Source: a virus. Taken from it: 36,484 nt of DNA. The translations under genes were made by a program, and so were the position numbers. Numbering within the stretch: the first letter of the stretch is position 1; each line of letters opens with the position of its first letter. The DNA lies in the IMG/VR virus record IMGVR_UViG_3300008267_000721, positions 1-36,484 of that record. One strand, written 5' to 3'. The notes beneath the pieces were generated by a model. It saw only the letters and a list, made by a program, of their open reading frames with translations. It had not been told where the DNA came from and did no database searches. This document shows, piece by piece, positions 992-15,766 of the stretch.

Positions 992-1255
992 CTACCCTCG
1001 CTTTTTATAATTATTATCGTTTTGAGAATTTATCTTTTTTTGGAATTCTCTTACACGTTTTTTCTCGTTTTTAATTCCTTCAAGTTTTTGTCTGCGTCTT
1101 ACAACAGATGGTTTTTCGTAATAACGTCTTTCTCTAACTTGTTCGATAACTCTTTCTTTTTTAACTCTTTTAATAAATCTTTTGAGCATTCTTTCAAATG
1201 GTTCGTCTTTCTTTTGCTCAACTTTTGCGTTAACGTGTGTACTTTTTTTAGACAT
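992..1255 (-). CDS. rpsU: Ribosomal protein bS21 homologue, phage-encoded
   Basis: The 87 aa product aligns without gaps to bacterial bS21 over about 60 residues. It shows the N-terminal EPFERMLKRF (E. coli has EPFDVALRRF), the central VRERRYYEKPS (E. coli VRRREFYEKPT) and a long Arg/Lys-rich C-terminal helix. bS21 sits on the 30S platform next to the 16S anti-Shine-Dalgarno end and promotes initiation. Length is slightly above the usual 58-71 aa, with a 16-residue Lys-rich N-terminal extension and a tail ending NYKKRG. ATG at 1255 overlaps the preceding gene by 8 nt and has a GAGGT SD. It sits between head-type and fibre-type genes, so it should be expressed late. Identity is secure; the role (replacing host bS21 to favour phage mRNAs) is inferred. 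Confidence 0.92.
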   Translation of the reverse strand: MSKKSTHVNAKVEQKKDEPFERMLKRFIKRVKKERVIEQVRERRYYEKPSVVRRRQKLEGIKNEKKRVREFQKKINSQNDNNYKKRG

Positions 1256-2210
1256 ATAAACCTCTTAATTCGTTAAGTCTATTTTTAAGTTTTTCAACTT
1301 TGTTTTCTTTTTGAACATTTTCGCCTTCAGCAGACCCTGCAAAAAGCTTTTCTTTTGATAATTTTGGAAAACTATCAGAGAACTCTTCTACCTTTTCATC
1401 AGTAAAATTGCTATTAATTAATTTAGAATCAAATTGGTATGAATCATCATTGTTCGTTACTTTGATAACATCTACAAGGTCAAAGTCACTTGGTAATGAT
1501 TGATAAATATTTGGCTGATTAACAGCCCAATTTGTAATTAATTCTTCTTTTGTGTCACCCTTAAAACCATCGTTTTGAGCAATTAAAGCAATTTTGTTTA
1601 AATCAGAAACTGCTGCTTTGGTTAAGTTTTGTGTTTGAACTTCTGGTTTCATTTGATGATATAATGCTTTTGTTTGCAATCTCTCAATTGCTGCTTTATC
1701 TGAAAGATTACCAATTTGTTCTACTTGGTCCTTAGATAATGAACCAATATATTGCATAATAGGTGTACCTGTTTTCATAAGTCTTTGTTGAGTTTCTGAA
1801 GAAACACCAGCAAATAAGTTATCTAGTTGTCTATCAATATCTTTTACTTTTTGATAATCACCATCATCTATTGCTTTATCGTATTCTGTATGCAATCTTT
1901 TTTGTTCTTGGAATTTGCTTTGCAACAATTTAATATCATCTTGTGTTAATTGAGATTGTAATTCTCTTAATACATCTTCTTTCATACCAGCTTTCTTTAA
2001 AATTTGTTGAATTGTTTCTCCTCCACCAGACCCAGCATCACCTTTACCACCCATTCCAGCAGCAGCTTGGTGTCCAGCAAAAGTCAAAGTAAGAGCCATT
2101 AAAGCAGCTTGAAGTTGCTTTGCTAATCCTTCTTCAATTAATACTTTCTCTAATTCTTCACGAATTATAGAGCGAAGTTGGGATTCAATGATTATTTTAT
2201 TTTTTTCCAT
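1248..2210 (-). CDS. Putative internal head/core protein with recurrent N-terminal motif
   Basis: The 320 aa product starts at ATG 2210, overlapping the upstream gene by 19 nt. Residues 6-28 carry the recurrent helix (IIIESQLRSIIREELEKVL) followed by IEEG, which fits the [LI]-x-E rule for cleavage by T4-type prohead proteases. A short hydrophobic Ala/Leu/Met segment (about 33-50) and a Gly-rich linker (about 51-66) follow. The rest is predicted mostly helical and highly charged, with Gln- and Lys-rich stretches and no cysteine. I recognise no enzymatic family. Its position in the head operon, three genes below the protease, plus the N-terminal motif, suggest a scaffold, core or co-packaged internal protein. 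An alternative is a minor tail component. Role is inference. Confidence 0.65.
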   Translation of the reverse strand: MEKNKIIIESQLRSIIREELEKVLIEEGLAKQLQAALMALTLTFAGHQAAAGMGGKGDAGSGGGETIQQILKKAGMKEDVLRELQSQLTQDDIKLLQSKFQEQKRLHTEYDKAIDDGDYQKVKDIDRQLDNLFAGVSSETQQRLMKTGTPIMQYIGSLSKDQVEQIGNLSDKAAIERLQTKALYHQMKPEVQTQNLTKAAVSDLNKIALIAQNDGFKGDTKEELITNWAVNQPNIYQSLPSDFDLVDVIKVTNNDDSYQFDSKLINSNFTDEKVEEFSDSFPKLSKEKLFAGSAEGENVQKENKVEKLKNRLNELRGLYV

Positions 2211-2611
2211 CCACCTGTCATCCTTAATAATCCACCGATATCGATACCGGGGTCGCTTGGGTCTGTGTCACCTAATGGGTCTGCTGCTCTTGCTTCATTA
2301 ACTTTTTGTTCTGGATTTCCAGCAGAAGCAATAGGAGTTGTTCCCTCAAATATATTTATACCGCCATATGCTTTTTTACTTACTTCTTCAAGCATTTTCT
2401 TTCTTTCGTCAAATGCTTTTTGTTTTTCAGCAAGTCTTTGTTGTTTATAGTCATCTTCGACAACTTGTGGTTGAACTTGTCTTGTTTCAACAACTCTACC
2501 AGTTTGTTTGATAATTTCACTTATCACACTTGTCAATTCTTCTTGCATTGTTTCTTTTACAAGTTGTTTGACAAGAGGTTTTAACATTTTCTTTAATTCT
2601 AATTGTGTCAT
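2192..2611 (-). CDS. Small charged protein of the head region, unknown
   Basis: This 139 aa protein starts at ATG 2611, 8 nt after the previous stop. The first 35 residues form a strongly amphipathic helix with a divergent version of the neighbours' N-terminal motif (KQLVKETMQEEL, then ISEII). A Gln/Lys-rich predicted coiled segment (about 45-78) follows. The C-terminus is Gly/Pro/Asp-rich and probably disordered. No cysteine, signal peptide or catalytic motif is visible. It overlaps the 320 aa gene by 19 nt, so the two are likely translationally coupled. A helical, charged product next to the protease fits a prohead core or scaffold component, but I cannot assign a family. Confidence 0.6.
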   Translation of the reverse strand: MTQLELKKMLKPLVKQLVKETMQEELTSVISEIIKQTGRVVETRQVQPQVVEDDYKQQRLAEKQKAFDERKKMLEEVSKKAYGGINIFEGTTPIASAGNPEQKVNEARAADPLGDTDPSDPGIDIGGLLRMTGGWKKIK

Positions 2612-2619
2612 TTAATTCT

Positions 2620-3423
2620 CTAAGTTGTGGGAGTTGTTGGGGGTGCAGCGGACATTAAATTTCTTAAATGTTTAATTATATTATCAACTAATTGGTCTAA
2701 ATTAGTTTTTACATCCTCTGGTATTTGCGCCATATTTGTGGCTAATTCAAACAAATTTATAACCAACAAAACCAAAGAAGCTACAAAAATAGAACTATTT
2801 TGTTCTTTATATGTTGGAATTAAACTAGCAATTCCTTTTTTTAAATTTGTTATTTGTGCTTTTATATTGTCTTGTTTAGACTTTTCTGGGGCGTTTTGTG
2901 GTTCTTGTACTTTTTGTGCTTGTGATAAAAGTTGTTTCAATAGAGCAACTTCTTGGGAAGAAAGACCAGAAGTTGAAGAACCCTTAACTTTATTTTTTGC
3001 TTCTTTAACTTGTTGTTTTGAAACATTTACTTTTTCTTGCAATATCTGTTTTAATCTTTCTAATTTTCGTATACTATCTTCTACATGGTCTTTATTAAAT
3101 TCTAAATTTGTTGAAAAAATTTCAGAATATAAATTTTTAAAATTTTGTATACTTTCTGGTAATAAAAATTTAATTTGCGGTTCAATGTCATTAAATTGGG
3201 AAGGTATTTTAGACCCAAATTTATCTTTTATTGATGAAAAAGCAGACTTATCTGCTGCTTGTTTAAAAGTTGAAGAAAAATCTTTTCCAATTGTAGAAAA
3301 AGCACTTTTTATTCCAGTACCCAAACTTGAAAACATATCGCCTATACCTTCTTGAATTAAATAATTTTTTAATTCTGTACGTATAATATTTCTAAGTTTT
3401 GTTTCTGTAATAACAATTTTCAT
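2620..3423 (-). CDS. Putative internal head protein with recurrent N-terminal motif and one membrane-like segment
   Basis: The 267 aa product starts at ATG 3423 with an AGGT SD 9 nt upstream. Residues 3-24 carry the recurrent helix (VITETKLRNIIRTEL...YLIQEG); IQE before G is a good [LI]-x-E protease site. Cleavage there would leave a new N-terminus beginning GIGDMFSSLG, which continues as an amphipathic Ser/Gly/Phe/Lys stretch to about residue 60. The middle is charged and helical. A hydrophobic segment at about 211-229 (FVASLVLLVINLFEL) looks like a transmembrane helix, and the tail is Pro/Thr-rich. It is the first gene after a terminator-like hairpin. Possible roles include a head-core protein or an injected, membrane-active virion protein. 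No family recognised. Confidence 0.62.
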   Translation of the reverse strand: MKIVITETKLRNIIRTELKNYLIQEGIGDMFSSLGTGIKSAFSTIGKDFSSTFKQAADKSAFSSIKDKFGSKIPSQFNDIEPQIKFLLPESIQNFKNLYSEIFSTNLEFNKDHVEDSIRKLERLKQILQEKVNVSKQQVKEAKNKVKGSSTSGLSSQEVALLKQLLSQAQKVQEPQNAPEKSKQDNIKAQITNLKKGIASLIPTYKEQNSSIFVASLVLLVINLFELATNMAQIPEDVKTNLDQLVDNIIKHLRNLMSAAPPTTPTT

Positions 3424-3446
3424 ATTATAAAACCTATAAATAAATA

Positions 3447-3474
3447 GAGGATGGTATCATAAAATACCATCCTC
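3447..3474 (-). terminator. Perfect 11-bp hairpin, probable intrinsic terminator or mRNA-stability element
   Basis: A perfect inverted repeat GAGGATGGTAT / ATACCATCCTC (3447-3457 and 3464-3474) encloses a 6-nt loop. On the transcribed (minus) strand it is followed by a U-rich but not pure run (UAUUUAUUUAU). It lies in a 74-nt gap between the 72 aa and 267 aa genes, one of the few non-coding gaps here. Stem length and G+C contrast strongly with the A+T-rich surroundings. The imperfect U-tract allows partial termination or a processing/stabilising hairpin instead. Confidence 0.65.
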
Positions 3475-3497
3475 ATTAATTTTAAATCAAAAAACGA

Positions 3498-3716
3498 TTA
3501 TTTCTTTTTTGATTTTAAAGGACTCATTTTGTGGTCAGCATGAGCACCTTTCATTTTTTTCATTGCAGCTTTTTTCTTTGCTTCGGCAAGTTGTTGTTCT
3601 AATTCAGCAACTTCTTGGTCAGCAGAATTAACTTCTTCTTCAGCTTGTTGGTCTGCAACAAGTTTTTCCAATTCTTCTTTGATTATTTTTACTAATACTT
3701 GTTTAGTGAGAGTCAT
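3498..3716 (-). CDS. Small charged head-core-like protein with recurrent N-terminal motif
   Basis: I place the start at ATG 3716, not at the in-frame site at 3746 inside the protease gene. The 3716 start gives MTLTKQVLVKIIKEEL, matching the N-termini of neighbouring proteins, and has an AAGGA SD at suitable distance. The junction with the protease stop is TAA-A-ATG. The 72 aa product is helical: the motif, then an acidic Glu/Gln coiled segment (about 22-45), then a Lys/Met/His-rich basic tail (about 46-72). Size, charge and position beside the protease recall the small core proteins of T4 heads (gp67/gp68), but there is no convincing sequence match. Role is inferred. Confidence 0.65.
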   Translation of the reverse strand: MTLTKQVLVKIIKEELEKLVADQQAEEEVNSADQEVAELEQQLAEAKKKAAMKKMKGAHADHKMSPLKSKKK

Positions 3717-3717
3717 T

Positions 3718-4326
3718 TTATTTTGTTCCTTTTTTGAGAATATCATTTATTAAACCATTGATTTTTGCTTCTCTATTTTCAATCAAAGAGCGATTTTTAT
3801 TTTCTTGCATCATAAATGCACCTCTAGTTGAAGGTTCTGAAACAATATCAAAGCATATAAGATTAAAGTCATCTTCAACAAGAGTGACACCTTTGTTTTC
3901 TCTAACAGAGCCTGTTCCTCTTGATGAAATACCAATTTTTACATTTGCATTTACTAATTCTTTTAATACTTGTCCGCATGGTGTATTGAGCACTTGAATT
4001 TTGCCCATAACATCGTTACCTTGCCACCAAACATTGGTAACAATATGTGAAACTTTGGTTAAGTTAATAACAGATTCAGCAGGGTGGTCTAATTCTCCTA
4101 ATGCTCTTCTGTCTTTAACAACTTCTAAATATCTTTTAACTTCTCTTTCCAAAACCATACGTGGATAAACTCTTCCGTTTCCGTTTTGTTCATCACATCT
4201 TTGCATTGGTCCTGTAAGAATTAAGCCACCATTTTTAATAAAATGTTTATCGGATTCTGTCAAAACATCATCACAATAACCATTTGGACATAATTCAAAG
4301 TATTCTGTTAATAATTGTCTAGCCAT
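3718..4326 (-). CDS. Prohead core protease, T4 gp21-like
   Basis: The 202 aa product has the hallmarks of T4 gp21-type serine proteases, which share a fold with herpesvirus assemblin. They include NGNGRVYPRMVLEREV (about 48-63), LGELDHP with the likely catalytic His81, and KIGISSRG with the likely nucleophile Ser134 or Ser135. A FDIVSEPS segment at about 159-166 follows. In this family the enzyme sits in the prohead core, is activated on assembly and cuts scaffold, capsid and internal proteins after [LI]-x-E. ATG 4326 has a TAGGA SD. The gene lies downstream of the portal, as in T4-type gene order, and just upstream of several short proteins that carry candidate cleavage sites. Enzyme class is confident; exact catalytic residues are by motif only. 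Confidence 0.9.
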   Translation of the reverse strand: MARQLLTEYFELCPNGYCDDVLTESDKHFIKNGGLILTGPMQRCDEQNGNGRVYPRMVLEREVKRYLEVVKDRRALGELDHPAESVINLTKVSHIVTNVWWQGNDVMGKIQVLNTPCGQVLKELVNANVKIGISSRGTGSVRENKGVTLVEDDFNLICFDIVSEPSTRGAFMMQENKNRSLIENREAKINGLINDILKKGTK

Positions 4327-5300: not shown

Positions 5301-6109
5301 TATGAATTCAATTCCTTAACCAAGGATTGAAAACTTAAAACTTTTTCAATTATCTCTTTATCAACTGGTCTTGATTTAAGTTCATCAATTTTGTTGTTTA
5401 ATTTTTCTTTGTCGGCTTCGCTCAAACTTAATGAAGAATTAACAACGTTTCTAATTCTTGAAATTTCTTCGTTTAAATAGACAAGGAAATCAATATTATT
5501 ATCAGCATAAGAAAGAATATATTTTGAAAACAAAGTCTTTTGCTCTTCCAATAAAGATTCAGAATATTTATCATTAAACTTCTTGATTATTTGTTTATAT
5601 ATCAAATTATCAATTGGACGCATTTTGGTTTCTTCAACTACTTTATTTTCGCTTAAAATGTTTACAACTTGTTGTTCCAACAAAACTCTATGTTTAATTG
5701 AAACGTTATCATCAAAAAGTTGAGAGATAGTTGCAAGGTCTTTATAGTTTGGAAGAAAAGTAGAAAACACAGATGGTTCTAATTGTTTGTTCATCTTGTT
5801 TATTACTTGTGTTTGTTGATTAAATATGTCGCTACTATTCATGGAGAAATAAATTCTCTTTGCTTCTTGAATCATTTTATCAGCAATATGCTTATCAACA
5901 CCTTTTGTTTCATAAAGGCTTTTATAAACATCTAATTCTCTATGCAAGATAGAGTTTTTTCCAAAGTGTTCTTTAAGGATTGACATAATAATTGTTTTTC
6001 TATTGTCATCTTTATTAACAATAGATTTAGTCAATTCTTTAACAAGAGTCTCGTAAAGAAAAGCGGTATTTCTTTTCTTATTATGTTTAACTTTCACTCT
6101 TTCTTGCAT
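5300..6109 (-). CDS. Helical head-region protein, unknown (269 aa)
   Basis: ATG 6109 lies inside the 3' end of the portal gene (23-nt overlap) with a GGAG SD 10 nt upstream. The product is almost entirely helical and charged, with a Lys/Arg-rich N-terminus (VKVKHNKKRNTAFLYETLV) and Leu/Glu/Lys-rich coiled regions through to residue 269. It has no cysteine, membrane segment or catalytic motif. Proteins with this N-terminal pattern beside portals are familiar to me from marine T4-type phages, but I know of no assigned function. Candidate roles are head scaffold/core or portal-associated factor. The helical character and position favour a scaffold-like role; this is inference. Confidence 0.65.
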   Translation of the reverse strand: MQERVKVKHNKKRNTAFLYETLVKELTKSIVNKDDNRKTIIMSILKEHFGKNSILHRELDVYKSLYETKGVDKHIADKMIQEAKRIYFSMNSSDIFNQQTQVINKMNKQLEPSVFSTFLPNYKDLATISQLFDDNVSIKHRVLLEQQVVNILSENKVVEETKMRPIDNLIYKQIIKKFNDKYSESLLEEQKTLFSKYILSYADNNIDFLVYLNEEISRIRNVVNSSLSLSEADKEKLNNKIDELKSRPVDKEIIEKVLSFQSLVKELNS

Positions 6110-8045
6110 TAGTAGATTTCTCCAAGTTTTCGATTAATTGTTTAATTTCTTTGTTTGTTCTGAATAATTCTAGTTCTTCATTATCATAATTAGATTGATT
6201 AGATTCGTAAATTCCTCTGCTTAGACCAGATAATTCTTTCATGCCGGGAGTAACTGCGTTTCTACCAGCCATAGATTTAAACTTTGATTGGTAACTACGT
6301 GTTCTTGCTCCCGCTCCTCTATCATCACGTTGTTTAGGATAATAAATCTTTCCATTAGAGTTTGGAGAATAATATCCATCTTCACGACGACCGGGTGGTG
6401 CTGGTTCTGCTGCTGGGGCTTCTGCTCCACCACCACCTTCTGGTGTTGCGAGCAACATGCTTTCTGGTTCTTCGCCGCCCTCTGCTGCACCTGTTTCTGC
6501 ACCACCTTCTGGTGCTGGTGTTTCTTCTGCCCCGCCACCCAATGCACCACCAAGTCCAAGTTCTCCACCACCACCACCGCCAGCTTCTTCTGCGGGTTGT
6601 CCAATTTTTTCAAGTGATGCAGCAAATTTCTTGTCGTAGAACATTTCTCTTTGAATCTTGACAATTTGTTCATCAGACATACCAAAGATATTTTGTGCTA
6701 CCCAATGCTTGGAAAAGTATCCTTCAGTAGCAGCAGAAGCAACATCAAACTTAACTTTCCAATGTTCAAGTTCTTGAAGTGCTGCAATCTTGGATGGATT
6801 GTTAAGAGATAATTTAAATGAAATTAAATCTGTACCACGGAATCCAAGAGTATAAAGATGAATAATACCAATCTTTTCAAGTTCCGCTACAATTACTCTT
6901 TGAAGTCTTTGAATAGTTCTTGCGAAACGAATATCTTTTTGTGCAAGTGTTGTTTTATCTTCTGTTGCACCATCGCCTCTAATCAAGTAAGACATTGGTA
7001 CTTTAAGTGCAGCAAATAATTTATCTCTAAGATATTTTACATCTTCAATAGCAGAAGCAAACTGACCACCAGCTAATGCTTCAATTTTAGTATTATTTAC
7101 TCCACCACGTACAGGAATGAAGTAATCTTCATCAACTGAGGTTGGATTGTAGCGTAAATCTACACGACCTGTATTAGAATCAAGAATTTGATTTCTTTTC
7201 ATTTGGGTCATGACTTTTTGCATGTATTGCTCAATGTCTTCTGGAGGAACATTACCAACATCTACGTAGAATACTTTACGCTCTGGTGAACGTGTAATTC
7301 TATAGGCCATCATTGCATCTTCAAGAAGTGTGAGTTGTCTCCAAATTCTTCTTGCAGGGTCTAATACTGATGTACCATATGGTGAGTGTTTATCATTTCC
7401 AAGAATTCTAAAGTGTGCAATTTGCCAATTCTCAAATGTTAAACCACCAGAGTTCCATTGGAATTGTACATAATTAGAATTTGTTTTATCTTTACCTTCC
7501 ATTCTTTCAATTTGATTTGCTGGAAGTCCAATACCGCTTGTGATACCAAGTTTGTCATCGATATCAAGATATAAAAAGAAATCTCCATACTTACACATAT
7601 TTCTTGACCAACTAAACAAGTTTGATTCAAGATTTAATGTCTTAAAATATAAAGTTTCTAATATAGATTTGATTTCTTCGTTTGGACATTTAACTTTTAA
7701 CATATCTGTTAATTCGTTATTTGTCGTCATTTCGTCTGCATAAATATCGAGAGCAGATGCTATTTCTGGCATGTACTCCATTTGGTCAAAGTCAATATAT
7801 CTATCAGCACGATTTTGTGCGTGCATGGTCTTAGAAGACATATTTTCATAAGCAAGATATTCTGCTTTTTTAAATGACAAACCTTGTGCAGATTGAAATT
7901 TAAATTTATCTAATTGTGTTCTTCGATATCTACTTTGAGTTTGCTGATTATAGTTGGAGAGTGGCCCAGAAAACAATTTTGTCAATTGCTTAAATAATTG
8001 CGACTCTTCGTTTCTTGTGTTTTTGTTTCTTCTATTATCAGCCAT
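6087..8045 (-). CDS. Portal vertex protein, T4 gp20-like
   Basis: The 652 aa product sits directly after the terminase. It has the features of gp20-type portals: a conserved core with ASALDIYADEMTT (about 96-108), GDFFLYLDID (about 154-163), ERKVFYVDVGN and an MKVPMSYLI-like segment (LKVPMSYLIRGDG). The portal is the 12-mer DNA channel at one head vertex and docking site of the terminase. It is longer than T4 gp20 (524 aa) mainly through a Gly/Ala/Glu/Pro-rich low-complexity insert at about 485-560, which is strikingly GC-rich for this genome, followed by a Lys/Ser/Asn-rich tail. ATG 8045 has an AAAGGA SD overlapping the terminase end. Family call is strong from motifs and gene order. Confidence 0.9.
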   Translation of the reverse strand: MADNRRNKNTRNEESQLFKQLTKLFSGPLSNYNQQTQSRYRRTQLDKFKFQSAQGLSFKKAEYLAYENMSSKTMHAQNRADRYIDFDQMEYMPEIASALDIYADEMTTNNELTDMLKVKCPNEEIKSILETLYFKTLNLESNLFSWSRNMCKYGDFFLYLDIDDKLGITSGIGLPANQIERMEGKDKTNSNYVQFQWNSGGLTFENWQIAHFRILGNDKHSPYGTSVLDPARRIWRQLTLLEDAMMAYRITRSPERKVFYVDVGNVPPEDIEQYMQKVMTQMKRNQILDSNTGRVDLRYNPTSVDEDYFIPVRGGVNNTKIEALAGGQFASAIEDVKYLRDKLFAALKVPMSYLIRGDGATEDKTTLAQKDIRFARTIQRLQRVIVAELEKIGIIHLYTLGFRGTDLISFKLSLNNPSKIAALQELEHWKVKFDVASAATEGYFSKHWVAQNIFGMSDEQIVKIQREMFYDKKFAASLEKIGQPAEEAGGGGGGELGLGGALGGGAEETPAPEGGAETGAAEGGEEPESMLLATPEGGGGAEAPAAEPAPPGRREDGYYSPNSNGKIYYPKQRDDRGAGARTRSYQSKFKSMAGRNAVTPGMKELSGLSRGIYESNQSNYDNEELELFRTNKEIKQLIENLEKSTNARKSES

Positions 8046-8047
8046 AT

Positions 8048-9634
8048 TTATCCTTTAAATATCCAAATAAAATCTTTTTGCATTTCTCTTTGTTGCAAAA
8101 GTTTGTCTGTAAGTTTGTTTCTTTGGTCGTAACTTAACATACCATTTATACTAGTATCTAGTACCTTATTCGATTTTGTTATACCTGTCAATAATGCTTT
8201 TTGATATTCAATATCTTTTGTTGCATTTTGGAATACTGTATCTTTTACCCAACACGCAATTGATAACGACAATACTAAATCATCGTTATATCCTTGCATT
8301 GCCTGTGGTCTTCCATGATGCCAAATAAACGTTGTCAATTCATTATAAGAACGTACAGAGTTTATTCTTATCATCTTTGACCTAATAAACTCTTCCATCT
8401 TAGCAATTATCAAAGGTCTTGATTTGTGTGAGGTTGTAAAACCGGGAACAGAGTTAGACATACCTTGTGCCACGTATTGCTCAACAAATTCAGTAGAGCC
8501 TTTGGTTGAATAATAAATGTTTTTATATCCAAGTGATATAATCTTTTCTAATACTGCATACCCAAGATTGTTGTTTTCAACAACAATCATTGCATTACCA
8601 TATTGTCTTCCAGTATTCATCAATAAATTTGCAAAGTCATCTATATTTAATTTTCCTTGATATTCTGCAACTTGTTCCATTGTATCAAGATTGATTACAT
8701 GAAATACTGAAAAGTCCTTACCATCACCTCTGGCAACGTCTGCGACTAATAAGTATTTACATTTCTCATAGTAATCTTTCCAAATCCACAAGTTTCTATC
8801 AACACCAAGTCTTAATTTTGGTTCTGCAAATATTGTTGATAAGTATTCTAAATCTTCTGCTGAAAGTACAGTCTCACCAGATGCATTGAAAGAGCACTCA
8901 TATTCTTGTGCAATTTCACGTTTAGAAAGGTTTTTAGTTTCTTTCTGAAACCATTCTTCGTTTCTTTCTGGATGTACAGACCAATGAAGTTTTATTGGAT
9001 GAAATTCGTTTACAGAAGATTCAGCATCAATATAGGTTTGATGAAACCAATTACCGACACCATTAGGAGTTGAAATAGAAATACAACGACCACCAGTTGC
9101 CATTGTAGGATAAAGACCTGTCCAAAGTTCTTGCATACCCTCAATAAATGCTGCTTCGTCCAATACAAGCAAAGATAGTGCTTCAGAACGACCAGCATCG
9201 CCAGAAGTTGCAGATGATTTAATTTGTGACCCATTTGATAATTCAAATGAGTTTCTATTATCAATTGTTACTGTAGCAATCATAAGCCACGAAGGAACAG
9301 ACTTAATAATATATTTAACTTTCTTGACTAAGTTAGATGCTGAAAGAAGTTTAGTTGCTAATACCAAAACGTTCTTATCACGATGAAACAACATCAACCA
9401 AGCAATATAACCCGCAACTACAGTAGATAAACCAAGCTGACGGGCCTTCAGAATAACGCTAAATCTATGGTCTTGAAAGTCTTTGACTACATCCTCTTGA
9501 AACGGATACATTCTAAATGGAATTGGACCACGTTGAGGGTGTGAGATTTTACAATATGTATTTATGAAATATACAGGATTCTTACCACACTTTAATATTT
9601 CGTCTTGAACTTGTTGTTTGGTAAGTTTATACAT
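8048..9634 (-). CDS. Terminase large subunit, T4 gp17-like
   Basis: The 528 aa product is a two-domain packaging motor. The ATPase has a Walker A-like KARQLGLST (63-71), Walker B LLVLDE (155-160, with Asp159 and Glu160) and coupling motif ISTPNG (187-192). The RNase H-fold nuclease shows acidic residues in LVADVARGDG (Asp299), IVVENNN (Glu353) and YNDDLVLSLSIA (Asp451/Asp452), matching the Asp-Glu-Asp layout of T4 gp17. It translocates DNA into the prohead through the portal encoded next and cuts the concatemer. Slightly shorter than T4 gp17 (610 aa). The ATG at 9634 has no clear SD and lies 6 nt after the previous stop, so coupling is likely. No small terminase subunit was recognised nearby. 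Confidence 0.95.
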   Translation of the reverse strand: MYKLTKQQVQDEILKCGKNPVYFINTYCKISHPQRGPIPFRMYPFQEDVVKDFQDHRFSVILKARQLGLSTVVAGYIAWLMLFHRDKNVLVLATKLLSASNLVKKVKYIIKSVPSWLMIATVTIDNRNSFELSNGSQIKSSATSGDAGRSEALSLLVLDEAAFIEGMQELWTGLYPTMATGGRCISISTPNGVGNWFHQTYIDAESSVNEFHPIKLHWSVHPERNEEWFQKETKNLSKREIAQEYECSFNASGETVLSAEDLEYLSTIFAEPKLRLGVDRNLWIWKDYYEKCKYLLVADVARGDGKDFSVFHVINLDTMEQVAEYQGKLNIDDFANLLMNTGRQYGNAMIVVENNNLGYAVLEKIISLGYKNIYYSTKGSTEFVEQYVAQGMSNSVPGFTTSHKSRPLIIAKMEEFIRSKMIRINSVRSYNELTTFIWHHGRPQAMQGYNDDLVLSLSIACWVKDTVFQNATKDIEYQKALLTGITKSNKVLDTSINGMLSYDQRNKLTDKLLQQREMQKDFIWIFKG

Positions 9635-10194: not shown

Positions 10195-10575
10195 TTATTC
10201 GTATCCTTCTTCGCCCAATGAAATGGAATCAAATGTTGTTTCTGAGTCTTCACCCATAGTTTCATCTTGTTGTTGGTCAAATTGCCCAGATTGCATATCG
10301 TAATCTAATGCATGATATACATCACCAATCATTTGTGACATAACGGCAATTTTATATTGCATCCATTCTGGGAGGTCATCGTCACCTTGAATCATATCGT
10401 GAAGTTTCATAGCATATTCACCAATTTTAAATAATTGTGATTTTGCCATATAGCCTTCTTGTTCATATTCTGGCTCGCCAGTAAGTTCTTCTGGTTGCTC
10501 AACTGGACCTTCTAATTGATACATATCCAATTCTTCTTGGATAATTTCTTTTAATCTAGACTTAGAAATTTTCAT
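10195..10575 (-). CDS. Small acidic protein with recurrent N-terminal motif
   Basis: I choose ATG 10575, because a strong GGAGG SD lies 10 nt upstream and the product then starts MKISKSRLKEIIQEEL, matching four other N-termini in the window. The longer frame from 10656 overlaps the upstream gene and adds a segment with no supporting SD. The 126 aa protein is acidic: Glu/Gln/Pro-rich linker (about 20-45), a helical part with YMAKSQLFKIGEYAMKL and DDLPEWMQYKIAVMSQ (about 45-90), and an acidic, probably disordered tail. Candidate cleavage sites IIQE and QLEG follow the motif. Function unknown; the shared leader suggests targeting to the same place as the head proteins at 1248-3716. Confidence 0.7.
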   Translation of the reverse strand: MKISKSRLKEIIQEELDMYQLEGPVEQPEELTGEPEYEQEGYMAKSQLFKIGEYAMKLHDMIQGDDDLPEWMQYKIAVMSQMIGDVYHALDYDMQSGQFDQQQDETMGEDSETTFDSISLGEEGYE

Positions 10576-15466: not shown

Positions 15467-15766
15467 TTATCTTAACGATTTAATGAGTTGTGAAAGCTGT
15501 ACGTGTCCTTCTGAGAAAACTAAGTTTGCAACATTCATAGCAAGTTCTGGATTTCTTTTTATTTCTTCCATAGCATTGATTATATTGTTTGCTATGCTTT
15601 GTGCTTTTTGGTCTGATTGTTCGTCATATTTATAACCAAGTTTTTTACCATATTTAACTTGCCCAGAACCCAATTTTTGTTCATCACTTTCACCAAACTC
15701 TGGTGTCATCATTTCTTGAATTTCGTTGCGGATTATTGAACGAAGTTGTGATTCGGTAAGTCTCAT
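15467..15766 (-). CDS. Small protein with recurrent N-terminal motif, in the replication block
   Basis: The 99 aa product starts at ATG 15766 with an AAGGA SD about 11 nt upstream. Residues 2-17 (RLTESQLRSIIRNEIQ) nearly match the leader of the 320 aa head-region protein (ESQLRSIIREEL). The rest has a Gly/Lys/Tyr/Asp-rich segment (about 25-50) and a helical C-terminus (SIANNIINAMEEI, then HVQLSQLIKSLR). No Cys, membrane segment or catalytic motif. It lies between primase and SbcCD, far from the other motif carriers, so it could be a co-packaged protein made with the DNA-metabolism genes. Function unknown. Confidence 0.7.
   Translation of the reverse strand: MRLTESQLRSIIRNEIQEMMTPEFGESDEQKLGSGQVKYGKKLGYKYDEQSDQKAQSIANNIINAMEEIKRNPELAMNVANLVFSEGHVQLSQLIKSLR

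Follow-up and report, generated by a model that had tools for sequence, protein, structure and literature searches.

Why should several otherwise unrelated proteins of one virus begin with the same short helix? The question is raised by the IMG/VR virus record IMGVR_UViG_3300008267_000721, a 36,484-base fragment analysed over its whole length (the window hereafter), with its genes on the minus strand. A sequence-only reading of this DNA had described such a helix on three neighbours of a gp21-like prohead protease gene, and had proposed it as a leader that loads cargo into the prohead. The helix is in fact shared by five proteins of the window, which is not chance, and it belongs to a family of N-termini that we call tag A. 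We put at roughly three in four the probability that tag A is a new class of capsid-targeting propeptide, similar in function to the capsid-targeting sequence (CTS) of phage T4 and different from it in sequence, which would be cut by the Peptidase_S77 (gp21-type) protease of the same phages. The genes on which the question turns are the following:

3498-3716, minus strand: 72-residue tagged protein, MTLTKQVLVKIIKEELEKLV, in the slot of T4 gp22; matrix score 26.5
2620-3423, minus strand: 267-residue tagged protein, MKIVITETKLRNIIRTELKNYLIQE followed by G; matrix score 20.8
1248-2210, minus strand: 320-residue tagged protein, MEKNKIIIESQLRSIIREELEKVLIEE followed by G; matrix score 25.6
10195-10575, minus strand: 126-residue tagged protein, MKISKSRLKEIIQEELDMYQLEG, upstream of the terminase gene; matrix score 40.3
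15467-15766, minus strand: 99-residue tagged protein, MRLTESQLRSIIRNEIQEMM, between primase and SbcC-like genes; matrix score 28.7
3718-4326, minus strand: gp21-type prohead protease (Peptidase_S77), matching PF03420 and phrog_207

The scores come from a position matrix of residues 2-16, built from related contigs and used with a threshold of 16, which picks out exactly these five proteins of the window, where 0.035 would be expected from its rate in random viral contigs (one match per 1.05 Mb). The three open reading frames of the sequence-only reading (72, 267 and 320 residues) lie on the minus strand where it had placed them, with N-terminal helices as described, and its recognition of the protease gene is borne out by matches to PF03420 (103.8 bits against a curated cut-off of 27, E value 1.1e-29) and to the head maturation protease family phrog_207 (E value 7e-53). 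Its account of a helix common to head-region neighbours holds for these three proteins and was too narrow in scope, since two further carriers lie outside the portal-protease cluster and the tag extends across a whole phage group.

In the 72-residue protein, whose start codon overlaps the protease stop, the tag occupies residues 1-16 (3669-3716) and no [LI]xE directly follows the helix; its homologues in related contigs all retain the tag. The tag of the 267-residue protein (residues 1-25, 3349-3423) is retained in relatives with diverged bodies, and ends at a candidate cut IQE25/G26 (the slash marks the predicted cleavage). That of the 320-residue protein (residues 1-27, 2130-2210) ends at a candidate cut IEE27/G28, and L24, E27 and G28 are invariant, together with a C-terminal peptide, in five homologues of 24-40% identity. 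These are the LIQE-G and LIEE-G ends already pointed out in the sequence-only reading, and the only clear helix-end [LI]xE motifs among the five. The conserved C-terminal LNE314/LRGLYV of the 320-residue protein (1269-1277; LNE/LRG[LV]YV across the family) could be a second protease site, and T4 Alt is processed at both ends (PMC9026906). The 126-residue protein has no [LI]xE at the helix end, and the 99-residue protein, whose body has no homologue among related loci, carries I-Q-E within the helix (residues 16-18) and none after it. In AlphaFold models of the 320- and 126-residue proteins the tag is a helix that leads into coil, at low confidence (mean predicted local distance difference test score of 51), and the models were not used for fold searches; the PHROGs and Pfam matches of the 72-, 267- and 320-residue proteins were discarded as weak helix-helix matches without meaning.

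How far does the helix extend beyond this fragment? A DNA pattern for the tag, run over IMG/VR, matched in at least 120 stretches, each holding as many as five tagged genes; in all, at least 415 tagged genes with at least 318 non-redundant bodies were collected, so that the leader does serve as the search tag that had been predicted. Tag A is a helix of about 22 residues at the protein start, with the consensus M-K-[IL]-T-K-x-x-L-[KR]-x-I-I-[KR]-E-E-L; the same N-terminus stands on unrelated bodies, which share nothing past residue 24 or so. The consensus of 130 tagged proteins reads MKITKxxLxxIIKEELxxxxxE and is followed by practically no conservation. As the search pattern left positions 5-7, 10, 14 and all after 16 free, the glutamate at position 14 (95%) and the zone at residues 19-22 are independent findings. 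In 80 related protease contigs plus the window, a strict regular expression for the tag matched 58 times within about ten residues of an ATG and five times elsewhere. Tag A is real and widespread, and as an N-terminal tag it had not been named before in the literature covered: a search for the core string IIKEEL in phage gave nothing relevant, within a coverage that leaves out most subscription journals and preprints. One protein (L163:6560-7246) begins with two tandem tag-like helices (MKLTNSQLRRLIKEEIKLASRHAPASHNKFKFTKTELVNIVKEEV).

Chance likeness among Lys/Glu/Ile-rich helices in AT-rich genomes is the least probable of the rival explanations that we considered. The helix is of simple composition, and tblastn searches of phage records with the tag by itself returned nothing (probably owing to the low-complexity filter of BLAST) or one weak match, a result that does not show absence from cultured phages. 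Against chance stand the rarity of matrix matches in random viral contigs, the absence of the tag pattern from both control sets (0/50 viral contigs picked at random with an arbitrary 14-mer, and 0/279 archaeal genomes, archaea being the whole cellular set), and a control pattern of similar complexity, with one extra Glu codon, which had no viral match and one spurious match in cellular genomes. The random-contig, archaeal and control-pattern results refute chance resemblance.

A shared 5′ end could also reflect a DNA-level element, either a mobile 5′ cassette or a recombination hot spot, with the peptide as a by-product. Codon sharing among tagged genes, which is 0.64 for tandem genes within a contig and 0.53 between contigs, speaks for such an element. 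However, codon variety inside the tag, measured as codon entropy, nearly equals that of the bodies, and the upstream DNA carries only a signal resembling a ribosome-binding site; because of these two observations a DNA cassette is very improbable. A T4-type late promoter (TATAAATA) was found upstream of 2 of 313 tagged genes and was not seen as a feature. At the level of sequence, the comparison shows selection acting on the tag peptide.

If tag A has to do with head assembly, its carriers should keep company with the prohead protease. An S77 gene is present in 23 of the 32 tag contigs that reach 60 kb or more, against 2 of the 50 random contigs, which agrees with the predicted clustering of carriers with gp21-type proteases. 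Seven of the nine contigs without S77 also lack a T4-type portal and the other two have the portal at the contig edge, so that they are uninformative fragments rather than counter-examples. Conversely, the tag pattern occurs in 24 of 50 protease contigs and in none of the more distant S77 relatives, and tag A is therefore a feature of a part of the S77 phages. Orientation is nearly uniform: 63 of 64 pattern matches in the 23 large S77 contigs run with the protease, as do all tagged genes in the 45 of 80 related protease contigs that hold them.

The S77 gene itself sits in a T4-type head module, with portal and terminase genes in the window and a gp23-type capsid gene in relatives:

6087-8045, minus strand: T4-type portal protein (phrog_213, E value 3.9e-76)
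8048-9634, minus strand: large terminase (phrog_2, E value 5.3e-48)

The order in the window is T4-like (terminase, portal, small genes, protease, small genes), and the major capsid gene lies beyond it, being found further downstream in relatives. Around 80 proteases, there are 2.0 tagged genes per 10 kb over the 1.5 kb that precede the protease and 3.0 per 10 kb at +0.5 to +2 kb, against 0 at -3 to -1.5 kb (the portal/terminase stretch) and 0 beyond +4 kb; a second group of tagged genes lies upstream of the terminase. Tagged genes are 5-fold denser near the protease (from 1.5 kb before it to 2 kb after it) than elsewhere, and the slots rich in them are those of T4 gp67, gp68 and gp22. The adjacency to the protease claimed for the window is thus a general crowding into core-protein slots.

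This crowding is also what would be expected if the tag were the docking helix of core assembly factors of the gp67/68/22 kind, later degraded, with the Glu sites forming part of the degradation and nothing being delivered. The densest tagged positions are the T4 core-gene slots, the 72-residue protein is short, charged and coiled-coil-like and lacks a single cut site, and in T4, too, core proteins receive several cuts (PMC9026906). We consider this explanation unlikely, if the strongest of the alternatives: there are too many differing bodies (a single contig can have 5-7), many of them distant from head genes, some carriers have enzyme-like domains, and there is a single enriched cut site, at the tag end.

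The evidence for that site is as follows. In 155 of the 318 collected proteins (49%) an [LI]xE has its end at residues 19-24, as against 3-8% in equal windows further along. Shuffling the columns gives a mean of 72 (23%) and a maximum of 92 in 2000 shuffles, and the excess means that Leu/Ile and Glu co-occur in the same proteins. The residue after the Glu is mostly A, G, Q, S or N. In the gp23-type capsid proteins of the same phages (identified by a PDB match to T4 gp23, E value 4e-32), the propeptide has L-[LIV]-x-E at its end, with A, S, V or N as the next residue, and T4 gp21 cuts after L/I-X-E (PMC9026906). The leader end is thus enriched in the [LI]-x-E invoked by the sequence-only reading, in the same form as the capsid propeptide site, with the strict motif lacking in half of the carriers.

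What do the tagged bodies have in common? The 130 tagged proteins match 14 Pfam families, nearly all of them once, including GNAT, AAA_33 (polynucleotide-kinase-like), pentapeptide repeats, DUF6321 and EF-hand, and no tail, shell or replication family is among these matches. Length-matched untagged open reading frames from the same loci (n = 91) give matches to 34 families, among them portal, protease, tail-sheath stabiliser, amidase and methyltransferase. In one carrier (L172) the AAA_33 domain begins at residue 32, shortly past the tag.

When N-termini in related loci were clustered without use of the tag, tag A was recovered together with a second one, tag B (M-x-x-[LI]-x-E-N-W-R-x-[FY]-[LI]-x-E); the other clusters resemble ordinary homologues, and random loci give almost none. 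Tag B, which is not in the window, also stands on unrelated bodies and has an [LI]xE end, and its cargo includes NUDIX, GNAT, kinase-, nucleotidyltransferase- and LigT-like domains. It lies within 2 kb of tag A genes in 17 of 22 cases, where 58% would be expected for random stretches of the same loci, a modest difference that we do not use as evidence. Tags are also exchanged on one body: that of 10195-10575 carries tag A in the window, a tag B-type W-F-K-Y-L-T-E/A in a related locus (L174) and a T4-type MKTFKQLREE in cyanophage S-H9-1. The simplest reading of these sequences is that the exchanged N-termini do the same job.

The body in question is a helical domain (MAKSQLxKI...LPEWxQxKI) that recurs in many T4-like phages, twice in one 841-residue Immutovirus protein (L352:9305-11830), and in cyanophages beside a stretch called DUF6321 in other records. 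In Immutovirus there are other tag-like N-termini (L352:12930-14230 and L352:6974-7438), namely MADNFNLRSFLTENKLTKNAQLLKEG and MENFDLKKFLVENKLTTNSKILKEN on adjacent genes, and MKKQILSEQFRRMQKLAGIITESQ, each with [LI]xE, which are candidate tags. Flavobacterium phage immuto (NC_055915) has candidate tag-like proteins with MADNFNLRSFLTE and MENFDLKKFLVE, each followed by N, and MKKSQLRQIIKEALD. Virion proteomics of Immutovirus was looked for in the literature and not found.

Several observations weigh against tag A as a propeptide for the head. The contigs are related to each other, which inflates the statistics, and P values are accordingly not stressed; the link between S77 and the tag may come from shared descent only. 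The cellular test of the tag pattern covers archaea alone. Tag A is missing from about half of the S77 contigs examined, some of them 159-175 kb long, and hence the protease does not require it. Finally, 51% of tagged proteins lack a strict [LI]xE at residues 19-24 and 37% lack even [LIVM]xE, and three of the five in the window (the 72-, 126- and 99-residue proteins) have no strict motif after the helix. On these grounds one could suppose that the tag addresses a target other than the head, such as the host membrane, a polymerase or a replication compartment, and that S77 accompanies it by common descent of one phage group. The phylogenetic confounding, the missing motif in half of the carriers and the distance of 6-10 kb that separates the protease from the carrier group upstream of the terminase would fit. 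Such a destination would nevertheless leave unexplained the [LI]xE enrichment, the likeness to the capsid propeptide site, the crowding into core slots and the exchange with T4-CTS-like tags on the same body, and we rate it as improbable, second among the alternatives.

The capsid-targeting propeptide that we prefer finds its closest precedent in T4, whose internal proteins bear targeting propeptides of 10-19 residues; the CTS residues important for targeting are 4 and 7, and those important for processing are 8 and 10 (PMC9026906). An Asp at the T4 position that corresponds to E27 of the 320-residue protein prevents processing and leaves targeting intact (PMC9026906). Like tag A, the CTS of IPI, IPII and IPIII is a short N-terminal peptide on unrelated proteins of an S77 phage, ending in [LI]-x-E (in strict form in about half of the tag A carriers) before Ala or another small residue, and the order portal-core-protease-core-capsid is common to T4 and the tag A phages. 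However, the T4 CTS has about ten residues (MKTYQEFIAE), whereas the helix of tag A is longer, differs in sequence (KITKxxLKQIIKEEL) and lacks the aromatic-x-x-aromatic-[LI]-x-E core. Tag B of the same loci has this core, with the CTS spacing (MKTYQEFIAE/A in T4 IPII and IPIII), in place of the L..II helix of tag A. The three IP genes of T4 are scattered outside the head operon, whereas tag A carriers are many and partly beside the protease; and targeting is proven for the T4 CTS, while for tag A it is a prediction from sequence. In phage P1, the N-terminal 30 residues of DarB suffice for loading into the head (PMC9024508), although P1 belongs to another phage group and no consensus of DarB with the other Dar proteins was found, the likeness to tag A being one of description. 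In phiKZ and SPN3US a diverged homologue of gp21 processes many internal or ejected proteins after Glu (PMC9026906), and no comparable tag across hundreds of unrelated proteins was found there, in a comparison drawn from the part of the literature cited.

In the proposed mechanism, the amphipathic helix of tag A would, as the prohead assembles, dock its carrier on the core or scaffold. The S77 protease would then cut after the Glu of [LIV]-x-E at about residues 19-24, and slightly later in the 267- and 320-residue leaders, in the same wave as the removal of the capsid-protein propeptide. The freed cargo would remain in the head with the DNA, and at least part of it would be injected and act early on the host, while some of the carriers encoded next to the protease may rather belong to the core and be degraded. 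The proposal of the sequence-only reading, a CTS-like leader loading cargo into the prohead, gains support from the reach of the tag, its clustering with S77, the core slots and the [LI]xE ends; docking, packaging and the protease cut are steps that we infer from these data, and injection would follow from T4 practice and the type of cargo.

Two untagged genes of the head module share this neighbourhood. The first is

2192-2611, minus strand: untagged 139-residue protein of the protease cluster, with 86 tblastn matches among related loci

This family is kept after the protease in most S77 contigs; the protein begins with another repeated helix, LKKxLKPLxKxxxKE, and is probably a core or scaffold-region component. 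The second, at 992-1255, resembles ribosomal protein S21 (PF01165, E value 1.7e-11), and many related contigs, like Microcystis phage Mel-JY01, carry such a gene beside the protease as well.

For most genes of large environmental phages no function is known, and the proteins that accompany the DNA into the host are known for few model phages. If the reading of tag A as a capsid-targeting propeptide is right, it would be a new protein-loading signal beyond the T4 system, and a motif of 22 residues would by itself single out, from sequence, several hundred uncharacterised protein families as cargo loaded into the head. In T4-related aquatic phages, many functionally uncharacterised proteins would become candidates for injected material, and the polynucleotide-kinase-, acetyltransferase-, NUDIX- and LigT-like cargo would point to effectors of the first minute of infection or to counter-defence. 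On a wider proposition we are evenly divided: that S77 phages use a few interchangeable N-terminal tags (tag A, the T4-like tag B, perhaps NFDLKKFLVE/NKLT of Immutovirus) to load a large and fast-changing cargo, the tags being swapped between phages. If this were true, the head-loaded and probably injected proteins of each such phage could be read off from its genome.

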